A stretch of DNA of 64,000 bases from positions 13,023,001-13,087,000 of the forward strand of contig OY979717.1 of NCBI GenBank assembly GCA_963855995.1. The letters run 5' to 3'. The notes below the pieces were generated by a model that worked only from the letters and a program-made list of their open reading frames with translations, made no database searches and had not been told where the DNA came from. Source of the DNA: Muricea muricata (lineage: Eukaryota; Cnidaria; Anthozoa; Malacalcyonacea; Plexauridae). Positions within the stretch are counted from its first letter, which is position 1; every line of letters starts with the position of its first letter. Shown in pieces: positions 1-45,160 of the stretch. A program made the position numbers and the translations under genes.

Positions 1-37
1 CGTTCCAATTTTATTATATGTGCTGCCGGAGCAGCAC
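1..37 (-). ncRNA. U6: U6 snRNA, 5' part only (cut by window start)
   Basis: The 5' stem-loop and first 37 nt of U6; the rest lies outside the window. Its promoter is complete at 38 to about 300. Confidence 0.93.
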
Positions 38-478
38 GTTTATACATGTACCTCGTTCGTAAATATGTACGTAACAGCCTACTGCGCGTGCGTGTTACGG
101 TGGAGTGCGCGGGGGCGGTCCGGCCGAGTTCCCGTGCGGCGGCCCGGCTCGACTGAGAAGGCCGCACGCGACCGTTCATGTCTCTCTCTCTCCGCGCGCC
201 GAGATATATATCTTTATATATATTCTTATTGTTAGGATGAGGTTATGTGAGCGCACGCTGGTGGATTTTCTGTACATATCCCATAATGCAATGTAATATC
301 CATCGCTGAGATAAAGCGAATCATGTTCACGAACCTAAAAAAGGACAGCCTGAACGATTGAATATAGTGATGTCAATGATATAGGTTTGTCAATGAGAAA
401 AAGTTTTCGTCTTGGTCACAGCATATTCAATGTTAAAGCCGTCTAGATCTTAGATCTGAATTTTAGAACTCTCTCTAG

Positions 479-607
479 CCAATCATATGCTAGCATTGTT
501 CTAAAATTGATCTAAAATTTGACATTGCTGACTCATCGGAATGTGTTTAAAGTTTCAAGATGGCGTCCAGGCGTGGAGAGGTGCGCGTGCAGCTGTTGCG
601 AAATTAG
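479..607 (+). promoter_or_regulatory. CCAAT/CAAGATGGCG segment with 15-codon exon-1-like frame (unit 1)
   Basis: The plus strand carries CCAAT at 479-483 and CAAGATGGCGTCC at 557-569. A short frame from ATG 560 to TAG 607 begins MASRRGE; its GAG is followed by GTGCGC, a possible splice donor at the position where the exon 1 of copy B (57331-57354, MASSKRGK) ends in a donor. The segment is therefore probably a transposon gene 5' end captured in the unit, convergent with U6. CAAGATGGCG is also a YY1-type core promoter motif. Whether it is transcribed cannot be told. It repeats in all units. Confidence 0.5.
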
Positions 608-710
608 ACAAACACTGATTATGACGCAACAAACGTTGCTGCGCGAGCTAGTTTCGGCCTTCGCAAAGCTTGCGCAGCTCACGGGGTTTTCTCAAGAAAG
701 AAAAAGAAGG

Positions 711-760
711 AAAAATTTGGAACGCTTCACGAATTTGCGTGTCATCCTTGCGCAGGGGCC

Positions 761-792
<32 letters not shown>

Positions 793-816
793 TTATATGT
801 GCTGCCGGAGCAGCAC
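711..816 (-). ncRNA. U6: U6 spliceosomal snRNA, copy 1 (reference copy)
   Basis: U6 is the catalytic snRNA of the spliceosome; it pairs with U4, then with U2 and the 5' splice site. The minus strand from 816 to 711 gives a 106-nt RNA that, from memory, matches human U6 almost base for base beyond the 5' hairpin. Visible parts: a perfect 7-bp 5' stem (GTGCTGC/GCAGCAC) with a TCCG loop, the ACAGAGA box, the AGC triad in TTAGCATGG, the internal stem-loop region CCCCTGCGCAAGG, the GATGACACGCAAATTCGTG segment, and a run of five T at the end that serves as Pol III terminator and Lsm-binding tail. Differences from human U6 are limited to the 5' hairpin, an A for C in ATAATAAAA and an A for T before the T-run. 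Upstream promoter elements sit at the expected distances, so the gene looks functional. Confidence 0.96.
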
Positions 817-838
817 GTTTATACATGTACCTCGTTCG

Positions 839-846
839 TAAATATG
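839..846 (-). promoter_or_regulatory. TATA-like box of U6 copy 1
   Basis: Minus strand reads CATATTTA at -23 to -30 from the U6 start at 816, the spacing used by animal type-3 Pol III promoters to select TBP/TFIIIB. The same element sits 23-30 bp upstream of all 57 complete copies. Confidence 0.75.
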
Positions 847-865
847 TACGTAACAGCCTACTGCG

Positions 866-884
866 CGTGCGTGTTACGGTGGAG
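866..884 (-). promoter_or_regulatory. Proximal sequence element (PSE) of U6 copy 1
   Basis: Minus strand reads CTCCACCGTAACACGCACG at about -50 to -68. The core CACCGTAAC resembles the human U6 PSE core (ACCGTAAC) and lies at the matching distance, so SNAPc binding is expected. It recurs in every unit at the same offset. Exact edges are a guess. Confidence 0.7.
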
Positions 885-1056
885 TGCGCGGGGGCGGTCC
901 GGCCGAGTTCCCGTGCGGCGGCCCGGCTCGACTGAGAAGGCCGCACGCGACCGTTCATGTCTCTCTCTCTCCGCGCGCCGAGATATATATCTTTATATAT
1001 ATTCTTATTGTTAGGATGAGGTTATGTGAGCGCACGCTGGTGGATTTTCTGTACAT

Positions 1057-1074
1057 ATCCCATAATGCAATGTA
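1057..1074. promoter_or_regulatory. SPH/ZNF143-like distal element of U6 copy 1
   Basis: Plus strand reads TCCCATAATGCAATG, close to the SPH (Staf/ZNF143) motif found in the distal enhancers of animal snRNA genes. It lies at -241 to -258 from the U6 start, near the usual distal element position of about -220 to -250. No octamer ATGCAAAT is seen. Present in each unit. Confidence 0.6.
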
Positions 1075-1489
1075 ATATCCATCGCTGAGATAAAGCGAAT
1101 CATGTTCACGAACCTAAAAAAGGACAGCCTGAACGATTGAATATAGTGATGTCAATGATATAGGTTTGTCAATGAGAAAAAGTTTTCGTCTTGGTCACAG
1201 CATATTCAATGTTAAAGCCGTCTAGATCTTAGATCTGAATTTTAGAACTCTCTCTAGCCAATCATATGCTAGCATTGTTCTAAAATTGATCTAAAATTTG
1301 ACATTGCTGACTCATCGGAATGTGTTTAAAGTTTCAAGATGGCGTCCAGGCGTGGAGAGGTGCGCGTGCAGCTGTTGCGAAATTAGACAAACACTGATTA
1401 TGACGCAACAAACGTTGCTGCGCGAGCTAGTTTCGGCCTTCGCAAAGCTTGCGCAGCTCACGGGGTTTTCTCAAGAAAGAAAAAGAAGG

Positions 1490-1539
1490 AAAAATTTGGA
1501 ACGCTTCACGAATTTGCGTGTCATCCTTGCGCAGGGGCC

Positions 1540-1571
<32 letters not shown>

Positions 1572-1595
1572 TTATATGTGCTGCCGGAGCAGCAC
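1490..1595 (-). ncRNA. U6: U6 snRNA, copy 2
   Basis: Identical to copy 1, same promoter offsets. Confidence 0.95.
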
Positions 1596-2268
1596 GTTTA
1601 TACATGTACCTCGTTCGTAAATATGTACGTAACAGCCTACTGCGCGTGCGTGTTACGGTGGAGTGCGCGGGGGCGGTCCGGCCGAGTTCCCGTGCGGCGG
1701 CCCGGCTCGACTGAGAAGGCCGCACGCGACCGTTCATGTCTCTCTCTCTCCGCGCGCCGAGATATATATCTTTATATATATTCTTATTGTTAGGATGAGG
1801 TTATGTGAGCGCACGCTGGTGGATTTTCTGTACATATCCCATAATGCAATGTAATATCCATCGCTGAGATAAAGCGAATCATGTTCACGAACCTAAAAAA
1901 GGACAGCCTGAACGATTGAATATAGTGATGTCAATGATATAGGTTTGTCAATGAGAAAAAGTTTTCGTCTTGGTCACAGCATATTCAATGTTAAAGCCGT
2001 CTAGATCTTAGATCTGAATTTTAGAACTCTCTCTAGCCAATCATATGCTAGCATTGTTCTAAAATTGATCTAAAATTTGACATTGCTGACTCATCGGAAT
2101 GTGTTTAAAGTTTCAAGATGGCGTCCAGGCGTGGAGAGGTGCGCGTGCAGCTGTTGCGAAATTAGACAAACACTGATTATGACGCAACAAACGTTGCTGC
2201 GCGAGCTAGTTTCGGCCTTCGCAAAGCTTGCGCAGCTCACGGGGTTTTCTCAAGAAAGAAAAAGAAGG

Positions 2269-2318
2269 AAAAATTTGGAACGCTTCACGAATTTGCGTGT
2301 CATCCTTGCGCAGGGGCC

Positions 2319-2350
<32 letters not shown>

Positions 2351-2374
2351 TTATATGTGCTGCCGGAGCAGCAC
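2269..2374 (-). ncRNA. U6: U6 snRNA, copy 3
   Basis: Identical to copy 1. Confidence 0.95.
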
Positions 2375-3047
2375 GTTTATACATGTACCTCGTTCGTAAA
2401 TATGTACGTAACAGCCTACTGCGCGTGCGTGTTACGGTGGAGTGCGCGGGGGCGGTCCGGCCGAGTTCCCGTGCGGCGGCCCGGCTCGACTGAGAAGGCC
2501 GCACGCGACCGTTCATGTCTCTCTCTCTCCGCGCGCCGAGATATATATCTTTATATATATTCTTATTGTTAGGATGAGGTTATGTGAGCGCACGCTGGTG
2601 GATTTTCTGTACATATCCCATAATGCAATGTAATATCCATCGCTGAGATAAAGCGAATCATGTTCACGAACCTAAAAAAGGACAGCCTGAACGATTGAAT
2701 ATAGTGATGTCAATGATATAGGTTTGTCAATGAGAAAAAGTTTTCGTCTTGGTCACAGCATATTCAATGTTAAAGCCGTCTAGATCTTAGATCTGAATTT
2801 TAGAACTCTCTCTAGCCAATCATATGCTAGCATTGTTCTAAAATTGATCTAAAATTTGACATTGCTGACTCATCGGAATGTGTTTAAAGTTTCAAGATGG
2901 CGTCCAGGCGTGGAGAGGTGCGCGTGCAGCTGTTGCGAAATTAGACAAACACTGATTATGACGCAACAAACGTTGCTGCGCGAGCTAGTTTCGGCCTTCG
3001 CAAAGCTTGCGCAGCTCACGGGGTTTTCTCAAGAAAGAAAAAGAAGG

Positions 3048-3097
3048 AAAAATTTGGAACGCTTCACGAATTTGCGTGTCATCCTTGCGCAGGGGCC

Positions 3098-3129
<32 letters not shown>

Positions 3130-3153
3130 TTATATGTGCTGCCGGAGCAGCAC
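3048..3153 (-). ncRNA. U6: U6 snRNA, copy 4
   Basis: RNA identical to copy 1; its upstream region has the only substitution noticed inside the array, at 3237 (-84, just beyond the PSE). Confidence 0.95.
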
Positions 3154-3826
3154 GTTTATACATGTACCTCGTTCGTAAATATGTACGTAACAGCCTACTG
3201 CGCGTGCGTGTTACGGTGGAGTGCGCGGGGGCGGTCTGGCCGAGTTCCCGTGCGGCGGCCCGGCTCGACTGAGAAGGCCGCACGCGACCGTTCATGTCTC
3301 TCTCTCTCCGCGCGCCGAGATATATATCTTTATATATATTCTTATTGTTAGGATGAGGTTATGTGAGCGCACGCTGGTGGATTTTCTGTACATATCCCAT
3401 AATGCAATGTAATATCCATCGCTGAGATAAAGCGAATCATGTTCACGAACCTAAAAAAGGACAGCCTGAACGATTGAATATAGTGATGTCAATGATATAG
3501 GTTTGTCAATGAGAAAAAGTTTTCGTCTTGGTCACAGCATATTCAATGTTAAAGCCGTCTAGATCTTAGATCTGAATTTTAGAACTCTCTCTAGCCAATC
3601 ATATGCTAGCATTGTTCTAAAATTGATCTAAAATTTGACATTGCTGACTCATCGGAATGTGTTTAAAGTTTCAAGATGGCGTCCAGGCGTGGAGAGGTGC
3701 GCGTGCAGCTGTTGCGAAATTAGACAAACACTGATTATGACGCAACAAACGTTGCTGCGCGAGCTAGTTTCGGCCTTCGCAAAGCTTGCGCAGCTCACGG
3801 GGTTTTCTCAAGAAAGAAAAAGAAGG

Positions 3827-3876
3827 AAAAATTTGGAACGCTTCACGAATTTGCGTGTCATCCTTGCGCAGGGGCC

Positions 3877-3908
<32 letters not shown>

Positions 3909-3932
3909 TTATATGTGCTGCCGGAGCAGCAC
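3827..3932 (-). ncRNA. U6: U6 snRNA, copy 5
   Basis: Identical to copy 1. Confidence 0.95.
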
Positions 3933-4605
3933 GTTTATACATGTACCTCGTTCGTAAATATGTACGTAACAGCCTACTGCGCGTGCGTGTTACGGTGGAG
4001 TGCGCGGGGGCGGTCCGGCCGAGTTCCCGTGCGGCGGCCCGGCTCGACTGAGAAGGCCGCACGCGACCGTTCATGTCTCTCTCTCTCCGCGCGCCGAGAT
4101 ATATATCTTTATATATATTCTTATTGTTAGGATGAGGTTATGTGAGCGCACGCTGGTGGATTTTCTGTACATATCCCATAATGCAATGTAATATCCATCG
4201 CTGAGATAAAGCGAATCATGTTCACGAACCTAAAAAAGGACAGCCTGAACGATTGAATATAGTGATGTCAATGATATAGGTTTGTCAATGAGAAAAAGTT
4301 TTCGTCTTGGTCACAGCATATTCAATGTTAAAGCCGTCTAGATCTTAGATCTGAATTTTAGAACTCTCTCTAGCCAATCATATGCTAGCATTGTTCTAAA
4401 ATTGATCTAAAATTTGACATTGCTGACTCATCGGAATGTGTTTAAAGTTTCAAGATGGCGTCCAGGCGTGGAGAGGTGCGCGTGCAGCTGTTGCGAAATT
4501 AGACAAACACTGATTATGACGCAACAAACGTTGCTGCGCGAGCTAGTTTCGGCCTTCGCAAAGCTTGCGCAGCTCACGGGGTTTTCTCAAGAAAGAAAAA
4601 GAAGG

Positions 4606-4655
4606 AAAAATTTGGAACGCTTCACGAATTTGCGTGTCATCCTTGCGCAGGGGCC

Positions 4656-4687
<32 letters not shown>

Positions 4688-4711
4688 TTATATGTGCTGC
4701 CGGAGCAGCAC
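4606..4711 (-). ncRNA. U6: U6 snRNA, copy 6
   Basis: Identical to copy 1. Confidence 0.95.
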
Positions 4712-5384
4712 GTTTATACATGTACCTCGTTCGTAAATATGTACGTAACAGCCTACTGCGCGTGCGTGTTACGGTGGAGTGCGCGGGGGCGGTCCGGCCG
4801 AGTTCCCGTGCGGCGGCCCGGCTCGACTGAGAAGGCCGCACGCGACCGTTCATGTCTCTCTCTCTCCGCGCGCCGAGATATATATCTTTATATATATTCT
4901 TATTGTTAGGATGAGGTTATGTGAGCGCACGCTGGTGGATTTTCTGTACATATCCCATAATGCAATGTAATATCCATCGCTGAGATAAAGCGAATCATGT
5001 TCACGAACCTAAAAAAGGACAGCCTGAACGATTGAATATAGTGATGTCAATGATATAGGTTTGTCAATGAGAAAAAGTTTTCGTCTTGGTCACAGCATAT
5101 TCAATGTTAAAGCCGTCTAGATCTTAGATCTGAATTTTAGAACTCTCTCTAGCCAATCATATGCTAGCATTGTTCTAAAATTGATCTAAAATTTGACATT
5201 GCTGACTCATCGGAATGTGTTTAAAGTTTCAAGATGGCGTCCAGGCGTGGAGAGGTGCGCGTGCAGCTGTTGCGAAATTAGACAAACACTGATTATGACG
5301 CAACAAACGTTGCTGCGCGAGCTAGTTTCGGCCTTCGCAAAGCTTGCGCAGCTCACGGGGTTTTCTCAAGAAAGAAAAAGAAGG

Positions 5385-5434
5385 AAAAATTTGGAACGCT
5401 TCACGAATTTGCGTGTCATCCTTGCGCAGGGGCC

Positions 5435-5466
<32 letters not shown>

Positions 5467-5490
5467 TTATATGTGCTGCCGGAGCAGCAC
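5385..5490 (-). ncRNA. U6: U6 snRNA, copy 7
   Basis: Identical to copy 1. Confidence 0.95.
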
Positions 5491-6163
5491 GTTTATACAT
5501 GTACCTCGTTCGTAAATATGTACGTAACAGCCTACTGCGCGTGCGTGTTACGGTGGAGTGCGCGGGGGCGGTCCGGCCGAGTTCCCGTGCGGCGGCCCGG
5601 CTCGACTGAGAAGGCCGCACGCGACCGTTCATGTCTCTCTCTCTCCGCGCGCCGAGATATATATCTTTATATATATTCTTATTGTTAGGATGAGGTTATG
5701 TGAGCGCACGCTGGTGGATTTTCTGTACATATCCCATAATGCAATGTAATATCCATCGCTGAGATAAAGCGAATCATGTTCACGAACCTAAAAAAGGACA
5801 GCCTGAACGATTGAATATAGTGATGTCAATGATATAGGTTTGTCAATGAGAAAAAGTTTTCGTCTTGGTCACAGCATATTCAATGTTAAAGCCGTCTAGA
5901 TCTTAGATCTGAATTTTAGAACTCTCTCTAGCCAATCATATGCTAGCATTGTTCTAAAATTGATCTAAAATTTGACATTGCTGACTCATCGGAATGTGTT
6001 TAAAGTTTCAAGATGGCGTCCAGGCGTGGAGAGGTGCGCGTGCAGCTGTTGCGAAATTAGACAAACACTGATTATGACGCAACAAACGTTGCTGCGCGAG
6101 CTAGTTTCGGCCTTCGCAAAGCTTGCGCAGCTCACGGGGTTTTCTCAAGAAAGAAAAAGAAGG

Positions 6164-6213
6164 AAAAATTTGGAACGCTTCACGAATTTGCGTGTCATCC
6201 TTGCGCAGGGGCC

Positions 6214-6245
<32 letters not shown>

Positions 6246-6269
6246 TTATATGTGCTGCCGGAGCAGCAC
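6164..6269 (-). ncRNA. U6: U6 snRNA, copy 8
   Basis: Identical to copy 1. Confidence 0.95.
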
Positions 6270-6942
6270 GTTTATACATGTACCTCGTTCGTAAATATGT
6301 ACGTAACAGCCTACTGCGCGTGCGTGTTACGGTGGAGTGCGCGGGGGCGGTCCGGCCGAGTTCCCGTGCGGCGGCCCGGCTCGACTGAGAAGGCCGCACG
6401 CGACCGTTCATGTCTCTCTCTCTCCGCGCGCCGAGATATATATCTTTATATATATTCTTATTGTTAGGATGAGGTTATGTGAGCGCACGCTGGTGGATTT
6501 TCTGTACATATCCCATAATGCAATGTAATATCCATCGCTGAGATAAAGCGAATCATGTTCACGAACCTAAAAAAGGACAGCCTGAACGATTGAATATAGT
6601 GATGTCAATGATATAGGTTTGTCAATGAGAAAAAGTTTTCGTCTTGGTCACAGCATATTCAATGTTAAAGCCGTCTAGATCTTAGATCTGAATTTTAGAA
6701 CTCTCTCTAGCCAATCATATGCTAGCATTGTTCTAAAATTGATCTAAAATTTGACATTGCTGACTCATCGGAATGTGTTTAAAGTTTCAAGATGGCGTCC
6801 AGGCGTGGAGAGGTGCGCGTGCAGCTGTTGCGAAATTAGACAAACACTGATTATGACGCAACAAACGTTGCTGCGCGAGCTAGTTTCGGCCTTCGCAAAG
6901 CTTGCGCAGCTCACGGGGTTTTCTCAAGAAAGAAAAAGAAGG

Positions 6943-6992
6943 AAAAATTTGGAACGCTTCACGAATTTGCGTGTCATCCTTGCGCAGGGGCC

Positions 6993-7024
<32 letters not shown>

Positions 7025-7048
7025 TTATATGTGCTGCCGGAGCAGCAC
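6943..7048 (-). ncRNA. U6: U6 snRNA, copy 9
   Basis: Identical to copy 1. Confidence 0.95.
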
Positions 7049-7721
7049 GTTTATACATGTACCTCGTTCGTAAATATGTACGTAACAGCCTACTGCGCGT
7101 GCGTGTTACGGTGGAGTGCGCGGGGGCGGTCCGGCCGAGTTCCCGTGCGGCGGCCCGGCTCGACTGAGAAGGCCGCACGCGACCGTTCATGTCTCTCTCT
7201 CTCCGCGCGCCGAGATATATATCTTTATATATATTCTTATTGTTAGGATGAGGTTATGTGAGCGCACGCTGGTGGATTTTCTGTACATATCCCATAATGC
7301 AATGTAATATCCATCGCTGAGATAAAGCGAATCATGTTCACGAACCTAAAAAAGGACAGCCTGAACGATTGAATATAGTGATGTCAATGATATAGGTTTG
7401 TCAATGAGAAAAAGTTTTCGTCTTGGTCACAGCATATTCAATGTTAAAGCCGTCTAGATCTTAGATCTGAATTTTAGAACTCTCTCTAGCCAATCATATG
7501 CTAGCATTGTTCTAAAATTGATCTAAAATTTGACATTGCTGACTCATCGGAATGTGTTTAAAGTTTCAAGATGGCGTCCAGGCGTGGAGAGGTGCGCGTG
7601 CAGCTGTTGCGAAATTAGACAAACACTGATTATGACGCAACAAACGTTGCTGCGCGAGCTAGTTTCGGCCTTCGCAAAGCTTGCGCAGCTCACGGGGTTT
7701 TCTCAAGAAAGAAAAAGAAGG

Positions 7722-7771
7722 AAAAATTTGGAACGCTTCACGAATTTGCGTGTCATCCTTGCGCAGGGGCC

Positions 7772-7803
<32 letters not shown>

Positions 7804-7827
7804 TTATATGTGCTGCCGGAGCAGCAC
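7722..7827 (-). ncRNA. U6: U6 snRNA, copy 10
   Basis: Identical to copy 1. Confidence 0.95.
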
Positions 7828-8500
7828 GTTTATACATGTACCTCGTTCGTAAATATGTACGTAACAGCCTACTGCGCGTGCGTGTTACGGTGGAGTGCGC
7901 GGGGGCGGTCCGGCCGAGTTCCCGTGCGGCGGCCCGGCTCGACTGAGAAGGCCGCACGCGACCGTTCATGTCTCTCTCTCTCCGCGCGCCGAGATATATA
8001 TCTTTATATATATTCTTATTGTTAGGATGAGGTTATGTGAGCGCACGCTGGTGGATTTTCTGTACATATCCCATAATGCAATGTAATATCCATCGCTGAG
8101 ATAAAGCGAATCATGTTCACGAACCTAAAAAAGGACAGCCTGAACGATTGAATATAGTGATGTCAATGATATAGGTTTGTCAATGAGAAAAAGTTTTCGT
8201 CTTGGTCACAGCATATTCAATGTTAAAGCCGTCTAGATCTTAGATCTGAATTTTAGAACTCTCTCTAGCCAATCATATGCTAGCATTGTTCTAAAATTGA
8301 TCTAAAATTTGACATTGCTGACTCATCGGAATGTGTTTAAAGTTTCAAGATGGCGTCCAGGCGTGGAGAGGTGCGCGTGCAGCTGTTGCGAAATTAGACA
8401 AACACTGATTATGACGCAACAAACGTTGCTGCGCGAGCTAGTTTCGGCCTTCGCAAAGCTTGCGCAGCTCACGGGGTTTTCTCAAGAAAGAAAAAGAAGG

Positions 8501-8550
8501 AAAAATTTGGAACGCTTCACGAATTTGCGTGTCATCCTTGCGCAGGGGCC

Positions 8551-8582
<32 letters not shown>

Positions 8583-8606
8583 TTATATGTGCTGCCGGAG
8601 CAGCAC
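8501..8606 (-). ncRNA. U6: U6 snRNA, copy 11
   Basis: RNA identical to copy 1; one extra C near 8722 (about -116), between PSE and distal element. Confidence 0.95.
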
Positions 8607-9280
8607 GTTTATACATGTACCTCGTTCGTAAATATGTACGTAACAGCCTACTGCGCGTGCGTGTTACGGTGGAGTGCGCGGGGGCGGTCCGGCCGAGTTC
8701 CCGTGCGGCGGCCCGGCTCGACCTGAGAAGGCCGCACGCGACCGTTCATGTCTCTCTCTCTCCGCGCGCCGAGATATATATCTTTATATATATTCTTATT
8801 GTTAGGATGAGGTTATGTGAGCGCACGCTGGTGGATTTTCTGTACATATCCCATAATGCAATGTAATATCCATCGCTGAGATAAAGCGAATCATGTTCAC
8901 GAACCTAAAAAAGGACAGCCTGAACGATTGAATATAGTGATGTCAATGATATAGGTTTGTCAATGAGAAAAAGTTTTCGTCTTGGTCACAGCATATTCAA
9001 TGTTAAAGCCGTCTAGATCTTAGATCTGAATTTTAGAACTCTCTCTAGCCAATCATATGCTAGCATTGTTCTAAAATTGATCTAAAATTTGACATTGCTG
9101 ACTCATCGGAATGTGTTTAAAGTTTCAAGATGGCGTCCAGGCGTGGAGAGGTGCGCGTGCAGCTGTTGCGAAATTAGACAAACACTGATTATGACGCAAC
9201 AAACGTTGCTGCGCGAGCTAGTTTCGGCCTTCGCAAAGCTTGCGCAGCTCACGGGGTTTTCTCAAGAAAGAAAAAGAAGG

Positions 9281-9330
9281 AAAAATTTGGAACGCTTCAC
9301 GAATTTGCGTGTCATCCTTGCGCAGGGGCC

Positions 9331-9362
<32 letters not shown>

Positions 9363-9386
9363 TTATATGTGCTGCCGGAGCAGCAC
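9281..9386 (-). ncRNA. U6: U6 snRNA, copy 12
   Basis: Identical to copy 1. Confidence 0.95.
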
Positions 9387-10059
9387 GTTTATACATGTAC
9401 CTCGTTCGTAAATATGTACGTAACAGCCTACTGCGCGTGCGTGTTACGGTGGAGTGCGCGGGGGCGGTCCGGCCGAGTTCCCGTGCGGCGGCCCGGCTCG
9501 ACTGAGAAGGCCGCACGCGACCGTTCATGTCTCTCTCTCTCCGCGCGCCGAGATATATATCTTTATATATATTCTTATTGTTAGGATGAGGTTATGTGAG
9601 CGCACGCTGGTGGATTTTCTGTACATATCCCATAATGCAATGTAATATCCATCGCTGAGATAAAGCGAATCATGTTCACGAACCTAAAAAAGGACAGCCT
9701 GAACGATTGAATATAGTGATGTCAATGATATAGGTTTGTCAATGAGAAAAAGTTTTCGTCTTGGTCACAGCATATTCAATGTTAAAGCCGTCTAGATCTT
9801 AGATCTGAATTTTAGAACTCTCTCTAGCCAATCATATGCTAGCATTGTTCTAAAATTGATCTAAAATTTGACATTGCTGACTCATCGGAATGTGTTTAAA
9901 GTTTCAAGATGGCGTCCAGGCGTGGAGAGGTGCGCGTGCAGCTGTTGCGAAATTAGACAAACACTGATTATGACGCAACAAACGTTGCTGCGCGAGCTAG
10001 TTTCGGCCTTCGCAAAGCTTGCGCAGCTCACGGGGTTTTCTCAAGAAAGAAAAAGAAGG

Positions 10060-10109
10060 AAAAATTTGGAACGCTTCACGAATTTGCGTGTCATCCTTGC
10101 GCAGGGGCC

Positions 10110-10141
<32 letters not shown>

Positions 10142-10165
10142 TTATATGTGCTGCCGGAGCAGCAC
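10060..10165 (-). ncRNA. U6: U6 snRNA, copy 13
   Basis: Identical to copy 1. Confidence 0.95.
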
Positions 10166-10838
10166 GTTTATACATGTACCTCGTTCGTAAATATGTACGT
10201 AACAGCCTACTGCGCGTGCGTGTTACGGTGGAGTGCGCGGGGGCGGTCCGGCCGAGTTCCCGTGCGGCGGCCCGGCTCGACTGAGAAGGCCGCACGCGAC
10301 CGTTCATGTCTCTCTCTCTCCGCGCGCCGAGATATATATCTTTATATATATTCTTATTGTTAGGATGAGGTTATGTGAGCGCACGCTGGTGGATTTTCTG
10401 TACATATCCCATAATGCAATGTAATATCCATCGCTGAGATAAAGCGAATCATGTTCACGAACCTAAAAAAGGACAGCCTGAACGATTGAATATAGTGATG
10501 TCAATGATATAGGTTTGTCAATGAGAAAAAGTTTTCGTCTTGGTCACAGCATATTCAATGTTAAAGCCGTCTAGATCTTAGATCTGAATTTTAGAACTCT
10601 CTCTAGCCAATCATATGCTAGCATTGTTCTAAAATTGATCTAAAATTTGACATTGCTGACTCATCGGAATGTGTTTAAAGTTTCAAGATGGCGTCCAGGC
10701 GTGGAGAGGTGCGCGTGCAGCTGTTGCGAAATTAGACAAACACTGATTATGACGCAACAAACGTTGCTGCGCGAGCTAGTTTCGGCCTTCGCAAAGCTTG
10801 CGCAGCTCACGGGGTTTTCTCAAGAAAGAAAAAGAAGG

Positions 10839-10888
10839 AAAAATTTGGAACGCTTCACGAATTTGCGTGTCATCCTTGCGCAGGGGCC

Positions 10889-10920
<32 letters not shown>

Positions 10921-34210: not shown

Positions 34211-34260
34211 AAAAATTTGGAACGCTTCACGAATTTGCGTGTCATCCTTGCGCAGGGGCC

Positions 34261-34292
<32 letters not shown>

Positions 34293-34316
34293 TTATATGT
34301 GCTGCCGGAGCAGCAC
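34211..34316 (-). ncRNA. U6: U6 snRNA, copy 44
   Basis: RNA identical to copy 1; the upstream CT run near 34463 has one extra CT, the same change as at copy 28. Confidence 0.95.
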
Positions 34317-34991: not shown

Positions 34992-35041
34992 AAAAATTTG
35001 GAACGCTTCACGAATTTGCGTGTCATCCTTGCGCAGGGGCC

Positions 35042-35073
<32 letters not shown>

Positions 35074-35097
35074 TTATATGTGCTGCCGGAGCAGCAC
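34992..35097 (-). ncRNA. U6: U6 snRNA, copy 45
   Basis: Identical to copy 1. Confidence 0.95.
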
Positions 35098-35770
35098 GTT
35101 TATACATGTACCTCGTTCGTAAATATGTACGTAACAGCCTACTGCGCGTGCGTGTTACGGTGGAGTGCGCGGGGGCGGTCCGGCCGAGTTCCCGTGCGGC
35201 GGCCCGGCTCGACTGAGAAGGCCGCACGCGACCGTTCATGTCTCTCTCTCTCCGCGCGCCGAGATATATATCTTTATATATATTCTTATTGTTAGGATGA
35301 GGTTATGTGAGCGCACGCTGGTGGATTTTCTGTACATATCCCATAATGCAATGTAATATCCATCGCTGAGATAAAGCGAATCATGTTCACGAACCTAAAA
35401 AAGGACAGCCTGAACGATTGAATATAGTGATGTCAATGATATAGGTTTGTCAATGAGAAAAAGTTTTCGTCTTGGTCACAGCATATTCAATGTTAAAGCC
35501 GTCTAGATCTTAGATCTGAATTTTAGAACTCTCTCTAGCCAATCATATGCTAGCATTGTTCTAAAATTGATCTAAAATTTGACATTGCTGACTCATCGGA
35601 ATGTGTTTAAAGTTTCAAGATGGCGTCCAGGCGTGGAGAGGTGCGCGTGCAGCTGTTGCGAAATTAGACAAACACTGATTATGACGCAACAAACGTTGCT
35701 GCGCGAGCTAGTTTCGGCCTTCGCAAAGCTTGCGCAGCTCACGGGGTTTTCTCAAGAAAGAAAAAGAAGG

Positions 35771-35820
35771 AAAAATTTGGAACGCTTCACGAATTTGCGT
35801 GTCATCCTTGCGCAGGGGCC

Positions 35821-35852
<32 letters not shown>

Positions 35853-35876
35853 TTATATGTGCTGCCGGAGCAGCAC
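35771..35876 (-). ncRNA. U6: U6 snRNA, copy 46
   Basis: Identical to copy 1. Confidence 0.95.
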
Positions 35877-36549
35877 GTTTATACATGTACCTCGTTCGTA
35901 AATATGTACGTAACAGCCTACTGCGCGTGCGTGTTACGGTGGAGTGCGCGGGGGCGGTCCGGCCGAGTTCCCGTGCGGCGGCCCGGCTCGACTGAGAAGG
36001 CCGCACGCGACCGTTCATGTCTCTCTCTCTCCGCGCGCCGAGATATATATCTTTATATATATTCTTATTGTTAGGATGAGGTTATGTGAGCGCACGCTGG
36101 TGGATTTTCTGTACATATCCCATAATGCAATGTAATATCCATCGCTGAGATAAAGCGAATCATGTTCACGAACCTAAAAAAGGACAGCCTGAACGATTGA
36201 ATATAGTGATGTCAATGATATAGGTTTGTCAATGAGAAAAAGTTTTCGTCTTGGTCACAGCATATTCAATGTTAAAGCCGTCTAGATCTTAGATCTGAAT
36301 TTTAGAACTCTCTCTAGCCAATCATATGCTAGCATTGTTCTAAAATTGATCTAAAATTTGACATTGCTGACTCATCGGAATGTGTTTAAAGTTTCAAGAT
36401 GGCGTCCAGGCGTGGAGAGGTGCGCGTGCAGCTGTTGCGAAATTAGACAAACACTGATTATGACGCAACAAACGTTGCTGCGCGAGCTAGTTTCGGCCTT
36501 CGCAAAGCTTGCGCAGCTCACGGGGTTTTCTCAAGAAAGAAAAAGAAGG

Positions 36550-36599
36550 AAAAATTTGGAACGCTTCACGAATTTGCGTGTCATCCTTGCGCAGGGGCC

Positions 36600-36631
<32 letters not shown>

Positions 36632-36655
36632 TTATATGTGCTGCCGGAGCAGCAC
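36550..36655 (-). ncRNA. U6: U6 snRNA, copy 47
   Basis: Identical to copy 1. Confidence 0.95.
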
Positions 36656-37328
36656 GTTTATACATGTACCTCGTTCGTAAATATGTACGTAACAGCCTAC
36701 TGCGCGTGCGTGTTACGGTGGAGTGCGCGGGGGCGGTCCGGCCGAGTTCCCGTGCGGCGGCCCGGCTCGACTGAGAAGGCCGCACGCGACCGTTCATGTC
36801 TCTCTCTCTCCGCGCGCCGAGATATATATCTTTATATATATTCTTATTGTTAGGATGAGGTTATGTGAGCGCACGCTGGTGGATTTTCTGTACATATCCC
36901 ATAATGCAATGTAATATCCATCGCTGAGATAAAGCGAATCATGTTCACGAACCTAAAAAAGGACAGCCTGAACGATTGAATATAGTGATGTCAATGATAT
37001 AGGTTTGTCAATGAGAAAAAGTTTTCGTCTTGGTCACAGCATATTCAATGTTAAAGCCGTCTAGATCTTAGATCTGAATTTTAGAACTCTCTCTAGCCAA
37101 TCATATGCTAGCATTGTTCTAAAATTGATCTAAAATTTGACATTGCTGACTCATCGGAATGTGTTTAAAGTTTCAAGATGGCGTCCAGGCGTGGAGAGGT
37201 GCGCGTGCAGCTGTTGCGAAATTAGACAAACACTGATTATGACGCAACAAACGTTGCTGCGCGAGCTAGTTTCGGCCTTCGCAAAGCTTGCGCAGCTCAC
37301 GGGGTTTTCTCAAGAAAGAAAAAGAAGG

Positions 37329-37378
37329 AAAAATTTGGAACGCTTCACGAATTTGCGTGTCATCCTTGCGCAGGGGCC

Positions 37379-37410
<32 letters not shown>

Positions 37411-37434
37411 TTATATGTGCTGCCGGAGCAGCAC
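37329..37434 (-). ncRNA. U6: U6 snRNA, copy 48
   Basis: Identical to copy 1. Confidence 0.95.
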
Positions 37435-38107
37435 GTTTATACATGTACCTCGTTCGTAAATATGTACGTAACAGCCTACTGCGCGTGCGTGTTACGGTGG
37501 AGTGCGCGGGGGCGGTCCGGCCGAGTTCCCGTGCGGCGGCCCGGCTCGACTGAGAAGGCCGCACGCGACCGTTCATGTCTCTCTCTCTCCGCGCGCCGAG
37601 ATATATATCTTTATATATATTCTTATTGTTAGGATGAGGTTATGTGAGCGCACGCTGGTGGATTTTCTGTACATATCCCATAATGCAATGTAATATCCAT
37701 CGCTGAGATAAAGCGAATCATGTTCACGAACCTAAAAAAGGACAGCCTGAACGATTGAATATAGTGATGTCAATGATATAGGTTTGTCAATGAGAAAAAG
37801 TTTTCGTCTTGGTCACAGCATATTCAATGTTAAAGCCGTCTAGATCTTAGATCTGAATTTTAGAACTCTCTCTAGCCAATCATATGCTAGCATTGTTCTA
37901 AAATTGATCTAAAATTTGACATTGCTGACTCATCGGAATGTGTTTAAAGTTTCAAGATGGCGTCCAGGCGTGGAGAGGTGCGCGTGCAGCTGTTGCGAAA
38001 TTAGACAAACACTGATTATGACGCAACAAACGTTGCTGCGCGAGCTAGTTTCGGCCTTCGCAAAGCTTGCGCAGCTCACGGGGTTTTCTCAAGAAAGAAA
38101 AAGAAGG

Positions 38108-38157
38108 AAAAATTTGGAACGCTTCACGAATTTGCGTGTCATCCTTGCGCAGGGGCC

Positions 38158-38189
<32 letters not shown>

Positions 38190-38213
38190 TTATATGTGCT
38201 GCCGGAGCAGCAC
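38108..38213 (-). ncRNA. U6: U6 snRNA, copy 49
   Basis: Identical to copy 1. Confidence 0.95.
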
Positions 38214-38886
38214 GTTTATACATGTACCTCGTTCGTAAATATGTACGTAACAGCCTACTGCGCGTGCGTGTTACGGTGGAGTGCGCGGGGGCGGTCCGGC
38301 CGAGTTCCCGTGCGGCGGCCCGGCTCGACTGAGAAGGCCGCACGCGACCGTTCATGTCTCTCTCTCTCCGCGCGCCGAGATATATATCTTTATATATATT
38401 CTTATTGTTAGGATGAGGTTATGTGAGCGCACGCTGGTGGATTTTCTGTACATATCCCATAATGCAATGTAATATCCATCGCTGAGATAAAGCGAATCAT
38501 GTTCACGAACCTAAAAAAGGACAGCCTGAACGATTGAATATAGTGATGTCAATGATATAGGTTTGTCAATGAGAAAAAGTTTTCGTCTTGGTCACAGCAT
38601 ATTCAATGTTAAAGCCGTCTAGATCTTAGATCTGAATTTTAGAACTCTCTCTAGCCAATCATATGCTAGCATTGTTCTAAAATTGATCTAAAATTTGACA
38701 TTGCTGACTCATCGGAATGTGTTTAAAGTTTCAAGATGGCGTCCAGGCGTGGAGAGGTGCGCGTGCAGCTGTTGCGAAATTAGACAAACACTGATTATGA
38801 CGCAACAAACGTTGCTGCGCGAGCTAGTTTCGGCCTTCGCAAAGCTTGCGCAGCTCACGGGGTTTTCTCAAGAAAGAAAAAGAAGG

Positions 38887-38936
38887 AAAAATTTGGAACG
38901 CTTCACGAATTTGCGTGTCATCCTTGCGCAGGGGCC

Positions 38937-38968
<32 letters not shown>

Positions 38969-38992
38969 TTATATGTGCTGCCGGAGCAGCAC
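38887..38992 (-). ncRNA. U6: U6 snRNA, copy 50
   Basis: Identical to copy 1. Confidence 0.95.
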
Positions 38993-39665
38993 GTTTATAC
39001 ATGTACCTCGTTCGTAAATATGTACGTAACAGCCTACTGCGCGTGCGTGTTACGGTGGAGTGCGCGGGGGCGGTCCGGCCGAGTTCCCGTGCGGCGGCCC
39101 GGCTCGACTGAGAAGGCCGCACGCGACCGTTCATGTCTCTCTCTCTCCGCGCGCCGAGATATATATCTTTATATATATTCTTATTGTTAGGATGAGGTTA
39201 TGTGAGCGCACGCTGGTGGATTTTCTGTACATATCCCATAATGCAATGTAATATCCATCGCTGAGATAAAGCGAATCATGTTCACGAACCTAAAAAAGGA
39301 CAGCCTGAACGATTGAATATAGTGATGTCAATGATATAGGTTTGTCAATGAGAAAAAGTTTTCGTCTTGGTCACAGCATATTCAATGTTAAAGCCGTCTA
39401 GATCTTAGATCTGAATTTTAGAACTCTCTCTAGCCAATCATATGCTAGCATTGTTCTAAAATTGATCTAAAATTTGACATTGCTGACTCATCGGAATGTG
39501 TTTAAAGTTTCAAGATGGCGTCCAGGCGTGGAGAGGTGCGCGTGCAGCTGTTGCGAAATTAGACAAACACTGATTATGACGCAACAAACGTTGCTGCGCG
39601 AGCTAGTTTCGGCCTTCGCAAAGCTTGCGCAGCTCACGGGGTTTTCTCAAGAAAGAAAAAGAAGG

Positions 39666-39715
39666 AAAAATTTGGAACGCTTCACGAATTTGCGTGTCAT
39701 CCTTGCGCAGGGGCC

Positions 39716-39747
<32 letters not shown>

Positions 39748-39771
39748 TTATATGTGCTGCCGGAGCAGCAC
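39666..39771 (-). ncRNA. U6: U6 snRNA, copy 51
   Basis: Identical to copy 1. Confidence 0.95.
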
Positions 39772-40444
39772 GTTTATACATGTACCTCGTTCGTAAATAT
39801 GTACGTAACAGCCTACTGCGCGTGCGTGTTACGGTGGAGTGCGCGGGGGCGGTCCGGCCGAGTTCCCGTGCGGCGGCCCGGCTCGACTGAGAAGGCCGCA
39901 CGCGACCGTTCATGTCTCTCTCTCTCCGCGCGCCGAGATATATATCTTTATATATATTCTTATTGTTAGGATGAGGTTATGTGAGCGCACGCTGGTGGAT
40001 TTTCTGTACATATCCCATAATGCAATGTAATATCCATCGCTGAGATAAAGCGAATCATGTTCACGAACCTAAAAAAGGACAGCCTGAACGATTGAATATA
40101 GTGATGTCAATGATATAGGTTTGTCAATGAGAAAAAGTTTTCGTCTTGGTCACAGCATATTCAATGTTAAAGCCGTCTAGATCTTAGATCTGAATTTTAG
40201 AACTCTCTCTAGCCAATCATATGCTAGCATTGTTCTAAAATTGATCTAAAATTTGACATTGCTGACTCATCGGAATGTGTTTAAAGTTTCAAGATGGCGT
40301 CCAGGCGTGGAGAGGTGCGCGTGCAGCTGTTGCGAAATTAGACAAACACTGATTATGACGCAACAAACGTTGCTGCGCGAGCTAGTTTCGGCCTTCGCAA
40401 AGCTTGCGCAGCTCACGGGGTTTTCTCAAGAAAGAAAAAGAAGG

Positions 40445-40494
40445 AAAAATTTGGAACGCTTCACGAATTTGCGTGTCATCCTTGCGCAGGGGCC

Positions 40495-40526
<32 letters not shown>

Positions 40527-40550
40527 TTATATGTGCTGCCGGAGCAGCAC
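40445..40550 (-). ncRNA. U6: U6 snRNA, copy 52
   Basis: Identical to copy 1. Confidence 0.95.
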
Positions 40551-41223
40551 GTTTATACATGTACCTCGTTCGTAAATATGTACGTAACAGCCTACTGCGC
40601 GTGCGTGTTACGGTGGAGTGCGCGGGGGCGGTCCGGCCGAGTTCCCGTGCGGCGGCCCGGCTCGACTGAGAAGGCCGCACGCGACCGTTCATGTCTCTCT
40701 CTCTCCGCGCGCCGAGATATATATCTTTATATATATTCTTATTGTTAGGATGAGGTTATGTGAGCGCACGCTGGTGGATTTTCTGTACATATCCCATAAT
40801 GCAATGTAATATCCATCGCTGAGATAAAGCGAATCATGTTCACGAACCTAAAAAAGGACAGCCTGAACGATTGAATATAGTGATGTCAATGATATAGGTT
40901 TGTCAATGAGAAAAAGTTTTCGTCTTGGTCACAGCATATTCAATGTTAAAGCCGTCTAGATCTTAGATCTGAATTTTAGAACTCTCTCTAGCCAATCATA
41001 TGCTAGCATTGTTCTAAAATTGATCTAAAATTTGACATTGCTGACTCATCGGAATGTGTTTAAAGTTTCAAGATGGCGTCCAGGCGTGGAGAGGTGCGCG
41101 TGCAGCTGTTGCGAAATTAGACAAACACTGATTATGACGCAACAAACGTTGCTGCGCGAGCTAGTTTCGGCCTTCGCAAAGCTTGCGCAGCTCACGGGGT
41201 TTTCTCAAGAAAGAAAAAGAAGG

Positions 41224-41273
41224 AAAAATTTGGAACGCTTCACGAATTTGCGTGTCATCCTTGCGCAGGGGCC

Positions 41274-41305
<32 letters not shown>

Positions 41306-41329
41306 TTATATGTGCTGCCGGAGCAGCAC
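41224..41329 (-). ncRNA. U6: U6 snRNA, copy 53
   Basis: Identical to copy 1. Confidence 0.95.
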
Positions 41330-42002
41330 GTTTATACATGTACCTCGTTCGTAAATATGTACGTAACAGCCTACTGCGCGTGCGTGTTACGGTGGAGTGC
41401 GCGGGGGCGGTCCGGCCGAGTTCCCGTGCGGCGGCCCGGCTCGACTGAGAAGGCCGCACGCGACCGTTCATGTCTCTCTCTCTCCGCGCGCCGAGATATA
41501 TATCTTTATATATATTCTTATTGTTAGGATGAGGTTATGTGAGCGCACGCTGGTGGATTTTCTGTACATATCCCATAATGCAATGTAATATCCATCGCTG
41601 AGATAAAGCGAATCATGTTCACGAACCTAAAAAAGGACAGCCTGAACGATTGAATATAGTGATGTCAATGATATAGGTTTGTCAATGAGAAAAAGTTTTC
41701 GTCTTGGTCACAGCATATTCAATGTTAAAGCCGTCTAGATCTTAGATCTGAATTTTAGAACTCTCTCTAGCCAATCATATGCTAGCATTGTTCTAAAATT
41801 GATCTAAAATTTGACATTGCTGACTCATCGGAATGTGTTTAAAGTTTCAAGATGGCGTCCAGGCGTGGAGAGGTGCGCGTGCAGCTGTTGCGAAATTAGA
41901 CAAACACTGATTATGACGCAACAAACGTTGCTGCGCGAGCTAGTTTCGGCCTTCGCAAAGCTTGCGCAGCTCACGGGGTTTTCTCAAGAAAGAAAAAGAA
42001 GG

Positions 42003-42052
42003 AAAAATTTGGAACGCTTCACGAATTTGCGTGTCATCCTTGCGCAGGGGCC

Positions 42053-42084
<32 letters not shown>

Positions 42085-42108
42085 TTATATGTGCTGCCGG
42101 AGCAGCAC
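42003..42108 (-). ncRNA. U6: U6 snRNA, copy 54
   Basis: Identical to copy 1. Confidence 0.95.
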
Positions 42109-42781
42109 GTTTATACATGTACCTCGTTCGTAAATATGTACGTAACAGCCTACTGCGCGTGCGTGTTACGGTGGAGTGCGCGGGGGCGGTCCGGCCGAGT
42201 TCCCGTGCGGCGGCCCGGCTCGACTGAGAAGGCCGCACGCGACCGTTCATGTCTCTCTCTCTCCGCGCGCCGAGATATATATCTTTATATATATTCTTAT
42301 TGTTAGGATGAGGTTATGTGAGCGCACGCTGGTGGATTTTCTGTACATATCCCATAATGCAATGTAATATCCATCGCTGAGATAAAGCGAATCATGTTCA
42401 CGAACCTAAAAAAGGACAGCCTGAACGATTGAATATAGTGATGTCAATGATATAGGTTTGTCAATGAGAAAAAGTTTTCGTCTTGGTCACAGCATATTCA
42501 ATGTTAAAGCCGTCTAGATCTTAGATCTGAATTTTAGAACTCTCTCTAGCCAATCATATGCTAGCATTGTTCTAAAATTGATCTAAAATTTGACATTGCT
42601 GACTCATCGGAATGTGTTTAAAGTTTCAAGATGGCGTCCAGGCGTGGAGAGGTGCGCGTGCAGCTGTTGCGAAATTAGACAAACACTGATTATGACGCAA
42701 CAAACGTTGCTGCGCGAGCTAGTTTCGGCCTTCGCAAAGCTTGCGCAGCTCACGGGGTTTTCTCAAGAAAGAAAAAGAAGG

Positions 42782-42831
42782 AAAAATTTGGAACGCTTCA
42801 CGAATTTGCGTGTCATCCTTGCGCAGGGGCC

Positions 42832-42863
<32 letters not shown>

Positions 42864-42887
42864 TTATATGTGCTGCCGGAGCAGCAC
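42782..42887 (-). ncRNA. U6: U6 snRNA, copy 55
   Basis: Identical to copy 1. Confidence 0.95.
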
Positions 42888-43560
42888 GTTTATACATGTA
42901 CCTCGTTCGTAAATATGTACGTAACAGCCTACTGCGCGTGCGTGTTACGGTGGAGTGCGCGGGGGCGGTCCGGCCGAGTTCCCGTGCGGCGGCCCGGCTC
43001 GACTGAGAAGGCCGCACGCGACCGTTCATGTCTCTCTCTCTCCGCGCGCCGAGATATATATCTTTATATATATTCTTATTGTTAGGATGAGGTTATGTGA
43101 GCGCACGCTGGTGGATTTTCTGTACATATCCCATAATGCAATGTAATATCCATCGCTGAGATAAAGCGAATCATGTTCACGAACCTAAAAAAGGACAGCC
43201 TGAACGATTGAATATAGTGATGTCAATGATATAGGTTTGTCAATGAGAAAAAGTTTTCGTCTTGGTCACAGCATATTCAATGTTAAAGCCGTCTAGATCT
43301 TAGATCTGAATTTTAGAACTCTCTCTAGCCAATCATATGCTAGCATTGTTCTAAAATTGATCTAAAATTTGACATTGCTGACTCATCGGAATGTGTTTAA
43401 AGTTTCAAGATGGCGTCCAGGCGTGGAGAGGTGCGCGTGCAGCTGTTGCGAAATTAGACAAACACTGATTATGACGCAACAAACGTTGCTGCGCGAGCTA
43501 GTTTCGGCCTTCGCAAAGCTTGCGCAGCTCACGGGGTTTTCTCAAGAAAGAAAAAGAAGG

Positions 43561-43610
43561 AAAAATTTGGAACGCTTCACGAATTTGCGTGTCATCCTTG
43601 CGCAGGGGCC

Positions 43611-43642
<32 letters not shown>

Positions 43643-43666
43643 TTATATGTGCTGCCGGAGCAGCAC
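43561..43666 (-). ncRNA. U6: U6 snRNA, copy 56
   Basis: Identical to copy 1. Confidence 0.95.
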
Positions 43667-44339
43667 GTTTATACATGTACCTCGTTCGTAAATATGTACG
43701 TAACAGCCTACTGCGCGTGCGTGTTACGGTGGAGTGCGCGGGGGCGGTCCGGCCGAGTTCCCGTGCGGCGGCCCGGCTCGACTGAGAAGGCCGCACGCGA
43801 CCGTTCATGTCTCTCTCTCTCCGCGCGCCGAGATATATATCTTTATATATATTCTTATTGTTAGGATGAGGTTATGTGAGCGCACGCTGGTGGATTTTCT
43901 GTACATATCCCATAATGCAATGTAATATCCATCGCTGAGATAAAGCGAATCATGTTCACGAACCTAAAAAAGGACAGCCTGAACGATTGAATATAGTGAT
44001 GTCAATGATATAGGTTTGTCAATGAGAAAAAGTTTTCGTCTTGGTCACAGCATATTCAATGTTAAAGCCGTCTAGATCTTAGATCTGAATTTTAGAACTC
44101 TCTCTAGCCAATCATATGCTAGCATTGTTCTAAAATTGATCTAAAATTTGACATTGCTGACTCATCGGAATGTGTTTAAAGTTTCAAGATGGCGTCCAGG
44201 CGTGGAGAGGTGCGCGTGCAGCTGTTGCGAAATTAGACAAACACTGATTATGACGCAACAAACGTTGCTGCGCGAGCTAGTTTCGGCCTTCGCAAAGCTT
44301 GCGCAGCTCACGGGGTTTTCTCAAGAAAGAAAAAGAAGG

Positions 44340-44389
44340 AAAAATTTGGAACGCTTCACGAATTTGCGTGTCATCCTTGCGCAGGGGCC

Positions 44390-44421
<32 letters not shown>

Positions 44422-44445
44422 TTATATGTGCTGCCGGAGCAGCAC
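44340..44445 (-). ncRNA. U6: U6 snRNA, copy 57 (last complete)
   Basis: RNA identical to copy 1. It is the last intact gene before the array edge; the rest of its unit, further upstream, carries four substitutions at 44908, 44959, 44978 and 44998. Confidence 0.95.
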
Positions 44446-45118
44446 GTTTATACATGTACCTCGTTCGTAAATATGTACGTAACAGCCTACTGCGCGTGCG
44501 TGTTACGGTGGAGTGCGCGGGGGCGGTCCGGCCGAGTTCCCGTGCGGCGGCCCGGCTCGACTGAGAAGGCCGCACGCGACCGTTCATGTCTCTCTCTCTC
44601 CGCGCGCCGAGATATATATCTTTATATATATTCTTATTGTTAGGATGAGGTTATGTGAGCGCACGCTGGTGGATTTTCTGTACATATCCCATAATGCAAT
44701 GTAATATCCATCGCTGAGATAAAGCGAATCATGTTCACGAACCTAAAAAAGGACAGCCTGAACGATTGAATATAGTGATGTCAATGATATAGGTTTGTCA
44801 ATGAGAAAAAGTTTTCGTCTTGGTCACAGCATATTCAATGTTAAAGCCGTCTAGATCTTAGATCTGAATTTTAGAACTCTCTCTAGCCAATCATATGCTA
44901 GCATTGTCCTAAAATTGATCTAAAATTTGACATTGCTGACTCATCGGAATGTGTTTAAGGTTTCAAGATGGCGTCCAAGCGTGGAGAGGTGCGCGTGTAG
45001 CTGTTGCGAAATTAGACAAACACTGATTATGACGCAACAAACGTTGCTGCGCGAGCTAGTTTCGGCCTTCGCAAAGCTTGCGCAGCTCACGGGGTTTTCT
45101 CAAGAAAGAAAAAGAAGG

Positions 45119-45160
45119 AAAAATTTGGAACGCTTCACGAATTTGCGTGTCATCCTTGCG
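45119..45160 (-). pseudogene. U6 3' fragment at the array edge
   Basis: Only U6 nt 65-106 are present (T-run at 45119-45123). The match stops after ...CATCCTTGCG at 45160 and unrelated sequence follows. Without 5' half and promoter it cannot be expressed. Confidence 0.92.

Follow-up and report, generated by a model that had tools for sequence, protein, structure and literature searches.

Introduction

Genes for the small nuclear RNA (snRNA) U6 are arranged in tandem in Xenopus, and mammals carry tandem arrays of U1 and U2 genes (RNU2). Here we describe a tandem array of U6 genes in an octocoral genome assembly of 453 Mb in 74 contigs, and the transposon remnants that lie at its right edge. 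The analysis started from a 64-kb stretch of one contig, C2:13023001-13087000, which we refer to as the window; positions given without a contig are window coordinates.

A transposon that targets U6 genes, Dada-U6, is described by Kojima & Jurka 2013: it inserts into U6 at nucleotides (nt) 65-70 with a target site duplication (TSD) of GCGCAA or GCGAAA, and carries TCTTCTCTG/CAGAGAAGA near both ends at a fixed distance from the TSD (PMC3706591). The Dada transposase has an N-terminal CCCC finger, a DDE region with DxxH and a C-terminal CCHC finger, and its orientation in zebrafish is opposite to that of U6. The same text mentions U6 arrays for salmon, medaka, stickleback, Daphnia, oyster and Capitella; a Dada family from Nematostella appears in its Table 1 under a name that gives no target (PMC3706591). 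Dada-U6 is stated to occur in "at least four animal phyla", namely Chordata, Arthropoda, Mollusca and Annelida (Kojima 2022, PMC8869645), and U6 is listed among the tandem multigene families of grasshoppers (PMC7754599). We found no mention of an octocoral U6 array or of a cnidarian Dada-U6 in the open-access literature searched, which included the accessible portions of PMC3706591, PMC8869645, PMC7754599, PMC2770079 and PMC4640811; the term Dada-U6 itself occurs in three papers of that literature.

We consider it highly probable that the locus in the window is the main U6 cluster of the assembly, built of head-to-tail repeats of about 779 bp that would be transcribed copy by copy by RNA polymerase III (Pol III), homogenised by exchange and probably targeted by Dada-U6. 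Each repeat is made up of one complete 106-nt U6 gene, which ends in TTTTT, of a TATA-like element at -29 and of a spacer. In the model that we propose, the genes are most likely transcribed one by one. Unequal exchange and gene conversion would keep the copies identical through concerted evolution. A Dada-type element would have broken the outermost U6 gene on the right, beyond which lie Dada-type copies, duplicated and decaying, together with U6 stumps; at each stump we favour insertion over later rearrangement as the probable cause.

The array resembles those of other animals (Daphnia, oyster, Capitella, fishes, grasshoppers, Xenopus) in its tandem or multi-copy U6 units. It differs in that a single assembly holds about 79 units, each 779 or 775 bp long and nearly all identical, a comparison that leaves aside the copy numbers of other invertebrates. 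With the mammalian U1 and U2 arrays it shares the concerted evolution of a tandem snRNA gene. In contrast to these, U6 is a Pol III gene, and U1 and U2 in the present genome sit together in a separate cluster on contig C16.

A homogeneous tandem array of U6 genes

We searched the window with the Rfam U6 model RF00026 at its gathering cut-off of 44 bits. There were 57 matches at or above the cut-off, all on the minus strand, each scoring 116 bits (E 1.2e-29) and covering model positions 1-105 of 105. These are full-length members of the U6 snRNA gene family with the conserved core present, and all 57 complete genes are letter-for-letter identical across 106 nt. The interval from gene to gene (n = 57) is 779 bp in 54 cases, 780 bp in one and 781 bp in two. 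When whole units were compared, 53 of the 57 were identical, and the remaining four carried changes of one or two bases: one unit is 780 bp long, two are 781 bp long with the same 2-base insertion, and one has a substitution. The left edge of the window falls within a further gene, the 58th, of which the 5' end remains at 1-37. At the other end of the array, the terminal unit is the most diverged of the block, with four changes, two of which are alleles of a second subtype described below and two of which are private. Because 57 identical full-length genes recur at a near-constant period, a chance origin of the array is ruled out.

The original prediction had claimed at least 57 complete U6 genes in a single orientation at 779-bp spacing, forming a homogeneous tandem array, organised like ribosomal DNA (rDNA), in an invertebrate. 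The Rfam check named in advance, run on the window, returned that number of genes on one strand, and the spacing, the near-identity of the units and the octocoral host agree with the rest of the claim. Its end point for the array, 45160, is matched by a truncated U6 stump reaching 45159 or 45160, and its proposal that every copy has its own promoter is consistent with a promoter-like region, including the TATA-like element, on each copy. The description of the array as uninterrupted holds inside the window and fails beyond it, where a gap of 200 N lies 1.5 kb to the left. New relative to the prediction are the minus-strand orientation, the extension to the left, the gap, and the break within a U6 gene beside transposon remnants on the right.

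The 5' region of the array units fits a U6-type Pol III promoter. Every U6 gene of the array ends in a T-run, and a TATA-like element near -30 is repeated across the units (Table 1); both are features of Pol III type 3 promoters. A diverged, broken U6 copy on contig C1 (L002) has a TATA-like stretch matching that of the array and is identical to it at 80 of 100 positions from -100 to -1. Further upstream, at -256, both array subtypes carry a motif that resembles a ZNF143/SPH site by an unscored pattern and that is a candidate distal element. For coral genetics, the array unit is a candidate source of a native U6 promoter.

Table 1. Features of the U6 array, its right flank and the PF20499 clusters. 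Positions are window coordinates unless a contig is given.
Feature	Position	Strand	Basis or content
U6 snRNA tandem array as far as the window contains it (subtype A, 779 bp), with 57 complete genes, another cut at the left edge and another truncated at the right	1..45159	-	Rfam, unit comparison
U6 gene, leftmost complete	711..816	-	RF00026, 116 bits
U6 gene, rightmost complete	44340..44445	-	RF00026, 116 bits
Terminal unit at right edge; U6 broken at nt 65 of 106, stump ~45119-45159	44446..45159	-	unit comparison
TATA-like element ATATTTA, -29 to -23 of rightmost gene, repeated across array units	44468..44474	-	sequence
ZNF143/SPH-like motif, candidate distal element, -256 to -240 of rightmost gene	44685..44701	-	pattern, unscored
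Dada-related remnant I; right limit is the end of the stretch shared with downstream copies	45160..54545	+	DUF6729 matches, motifs
Self-complementary insertion (83%), ~178 bp, splitting the DUF6729 region of remnant I	51103..51279	.	absent from two downstream copies
Dada-related remnant II: DUF6729 pieces and segment VDRDCC...LDIWH (D and DxxH motif)	58966..60397	+	profile matches, motifs
U6-unit stump: U6 from nt 71 on and 3' flank, 90% identical to unit, ahead of next Dada-related remnant	61882..62200	-	comparison
PF20499 cluster around the array	C2:12.76-13.17 Mb		33/75 matches
PF20499 cluster holding a broken U6 gene	C1:47.88-48.63 Mb		20/75 matches
PF20499 cluster	C1:54.50-54.96 Mb		18/75 matches
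PF20499 cluster starting ~3 kb from an intact 5S gene	C13:4.87 Mb (4.866-4.877)		4/75 matches

Probable Dada-type remnants and U6 stumps at the right edge

The array ends on the right (45159/45160) with a break inside a U6 gene, and remnants with DUF6729 matches, probably of Dada type, follow; in the right flank these matches reach E values of 2e-51 and 2e-26. Remnant I carries DUF6729 pieces at 50671-51102 and 51280-51558, a C-terminal CCHC-like finger within 52641-53270, TTCTCTG near its end, and 21-bp repeats at 45225-45444. The insertion that splits its DUF6729 region is probably a recent mobile element. A 191-bp tandem repeat of 8.7 copies (47689-49344) was also observed, in a part of remnant I of about 3.9 kb (46096-50023) that is missing from the downstream module copies.

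We examined the right flank as far as C2:13217000. It contains a repeated module of roughly 22 kb, at window coordinates 45393, 72334 and 94446 (the latter two being C2:13095334 and C2:13117446). Each downstream module carries at least two Dada-type genes, and the copies, which are about 98% identical over long stretches, represent a recent segmental duplication beside the array. Six U6 stumps are found at the right edge, one starting at U6 nt 65, where the array in the window ends, and five starting at nt 71. Because the module is duplicated, these five are not independent events. An Rfam search of 13 loci in the right flank gave no match at the gathering cut-off, and the stumps there therefore score below it.

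The most exact junction was found on contig C1. In L002, U6 nt 1-69 end in GCGCAA and are followed by 14 nt and then by TCTTCTCTG, which is the published Dada-U6 junction. We infer that the host numbering runs one lower than the published one, since the 5' loop of this U6 is one base shorter. At a further place, C2:13141669 (L003), a U6 piece comprising nt 37-74 comes after a gene for a Dada C-terminal finger. A partial version of the motif of the other end, AGTTCTCTG (7/9), lies 14 nt from each of the stumps at window coordinates 72262 and 94373. In the remnant after the stump that ends at 62200, no sub-terminal TCTTCTCTG/CAGAGAAGA motif was seen, and the copy in the window is without 7 terminal bases. 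CCCC, D...DxxH and CCHC-like motifs are present, spread over different remnants; by pattern, D...DxxH occurs in 38 of the 120 homologues listed. The third catalytic residue of the Dada transposase was not located.

A search of the genome with the PF20499 profile (DUF6729) gave 110 matches. All 72 matches of at least 29 bits, and three of the 38 weaker ones, fall in four clusters (75 matches in total; Table 1), one of which surrounds the array. The remaining 35, none of which reaches 29 bits, are dispersed over the genome and seem to represent another family. Broken U6 genes are present in two of the four clusters, where the reading for U6 covered these two and 1.2 kb of the C13 cluster. For the C13 cluster we considered a Dada element specific for 5S genes, given that a 5S gene lies about 3 kb from the start of its DUF6729 matches. 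In the 1.2 kb read there, the 5S gene is intact and no fragment of such a gene is present.

Taken together, the remnants resemble Dada-U6 in having a U6 array beside them or as their target, a U6 break near nt 65-71, DUF6729-type genes with CCCC, DxxH and CCHC-like motifs, a coding strand opposite to U6, and the exact C1 junction. They differ in that the host is a cnidarian rather than a member of the four named bilaterian phyla, and in that the copies, clustered next to the array, seem to be decayed and to have one side only, with five of the six stumps starting at nt 71. The remnants likely belong to Dada-U6.

Several observations weigh against the proposed model. For the promoter, a proximal sequence element (PSE) was not established, a U6-like gene on contig C7 (L001) agrees with the array at 55 of 104 aligned positions from -100 to -1, and the ZNF143-like motif was not seen in this gene or in the C1 copy. 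The length given for the array is that in the assembly, where the array contains the gap. For the transposon, no DDE segment was detected in remnant I, and none of the Dada-type copies seen is flanked by U6 on both sides. Five of the six stumps start seven nt off the published site, the sixth being the one at nt 65. At C2:13141669, the U6 match runs to nt 74, which is 5 nt past GCGCAA, and the motif there, TCTTCGATG, is imperfect. The 1.5 kb next to the C1 junction contained no recognisable Dada coding sequence; the nearest DUF6729 match is at a distance of about 3 kb and on the other strand than the U6 of that copy.

The start of the five stumps at nt 71 rather than at the published site, and their place in a repeated module, could also be explained if the right-edge stumps arose by decay of the array and segmental duplication, with the Dada genes adjacent by chance. 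We regard this as unlikely, because two different DUF6729 elements come after U6 stumps, the C1 copy combines GCGCAA with the sub-terminal motif, spaced as published, and the PF20499 matches of at least 29 bits are confined to four clusters.

Extent and subtypes of the array

The flank to the left of the window was examined over 150 kb. In the assembly, the array spans approximately C2:13005838-13068160 (62.3 kb), extends about 17 kb left of the window and comprises about 79 genes. The U6 cores left of the window read as N, in 21 tracts that are 76 long and a further one, 62 long, where the window begins, and the total of 79 (57 + 1 + 21) thus includes 22 genes that are deduced from unmasked gene ends and spacers.

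The 200-N gap (C2:13021260-13021459) separates 20 genes of a 775-bp subtype B, on its left, from the 779-bp subtype A on its right. Over their unmasked part, the subtypes differ by nine substitutions, one 6-bp indel and one 2-bp indel, and 18 of the 19 subtype B spacers that are whole and unmasked are identical. Right of the gap but still outside the window, a unit of subtype A (C2:13022236-13022938) bears a B allele. This allele and those in the terminal unit point to exchange between the two subtypes, which we consider likely. The two B alleles of the terminal unit are also common to five older U6 stumps, and the B state at these two sites looks ancestral. Likeness within a block exceeds likeness between subtypes and the edge unit is the most diverged, and we conclude that the tandem array is under concerted evolution.

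Identity among 53 of 57 units, together with a gap inside the array, is what would be seen if the assembly had joined a few units repeatedly and so inflated the array. Such an artefact is very unlikely, because rare variants tag four units, subtypes A and B sit in separate blocks, and the array runs into other sequence at both edges. A gap in an array of this kind could equally reflect collapse, in which case the true array may be longer.

Other U6 copies in the genome

A genome-wide search for U6, with the array cores masked, scored 48 of 46,484 candidates and listed four U6 places, of which one fell short of the cut-off. The C7 gene (C7:10455852-10455959) is a lone U6-like gene of 102 bits. 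Its conserved core is one base longer, its 5' flank has diverged strongly, and it is either a variant gene or a pseudogene. Among the 48 scored candidates, and within the limit set by the masking, none outside the array was better. Least probable of all, and close to dismissible, is that the array is mostly a pseudogene satellite, a repeat that spread as satellite DNA and happens to carry U6. In its favour are the degenerate C1 copy, which is broken and has the promoter region in common with the array, and the separate gene on C7. Against it, each of the 57 array genes is intact and has both a T-run and a TATA-like element, the C7 copy has the defects just given, and no better U6 was listed outside the array among the 48 candidates scored with the cores masked.

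Significance of the locus

The array was also predicted to be unusual and possibly undescribed. This was partly upheld: an octocoral U6 array is not described in those parts of the open-access literature that were searched, but the array is no isolated oddity, given the U6 arrays of oyster, Daphnia and Capitella (PMC3706591) and of grasshoppers (PMC7754599) and the U1, U2 and 5S clusters of the same genome. The octocoral array is a further case of the U6 arrays already known in animals. The gene array alone is unremarkable; the less expected part is the likely Dada-U6 in Cnidaria, which is of specialist interest. The locus shows an animal U6 array in its chromosomal position, together with its edges, two subtypes and a transposon that is probably specific to the array, in a species outside Bilateria.

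Should Dada-U6 be confirmed in an octocoral, a target-specific DNA transposon may have tracked U6 since before Bilateria, as R2 tracks rDNA, and the purging of insertions by arrays becomes testable. We tentatively suggest, while holding it to be rather doubtful, that the partnership of Dada-U6 and U6 arrays is older than the split between cnidarians and bilaterians, that exchange clears the array interior (57/57 readable genes are intact) and leaves Dada at the edge and beside the broken C1 copy, and that clusters of Dada copies indicate U6 arrays that have died or moved. Alternatively, Dada-U6 may have entered octocorals by horizontal transfer, which, if true, would be as notable as an ancient partnership.

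Other small-RNA gene clusters and the host

We scored the best candidates for U1, U2 and 5S genes, and the resulting counts are lower bounds. For U1, all of the best 42 of 5,883 candidates lie on C16:6114063-6497011, and 29 of the 41 successive intervals are 1,634 or 1,638 bp. For U2, the best 46 of 34,400 candidates comprise 17 on C16, 28 on C1 and one on C22. Six of the 17 U2 genes on C16 are exactly 919 bp from a U1 gene, and U1 and U2 on this contig probably share one repeat unit. For 5S, 41 of the best 47 of 14,746 candidates fall within C2:41.57-42.78 Mb. This rules out that clustering is peculiar to U6, and we conclude that the U6 array is one of several such small-RNA gene clusters in this genome.

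A mitochondrial MutS gene marks octocorals. The mitochondrial contig (C74; 19,292 bases) carries COX1 and a MutS_V match (PF00488) of 120 bits, and we conclude that the host is an octocoral. Of the 120 matches listed for a MATE gene in the left flank of the array, the best named one is from the octocoral Dendronephthya gigantea (88% over 66%). Another left-flank gene has its best named match in Montipora foliosa (72%), which agrees only at the level of Anthozoa. A stony coral, to which the Montipora match had at first pointed, is rejected as the host, since the COX1 sequence, the mitochondrial MutS and the Dendronephthya match all indicate an octocoral. A COX1-like stretch was also observed in a nuclear contig (C1:38414782-38416095), with a 443-aa open frame and one TAA, and is probably a nuclear copy of mitochondrial DNA.

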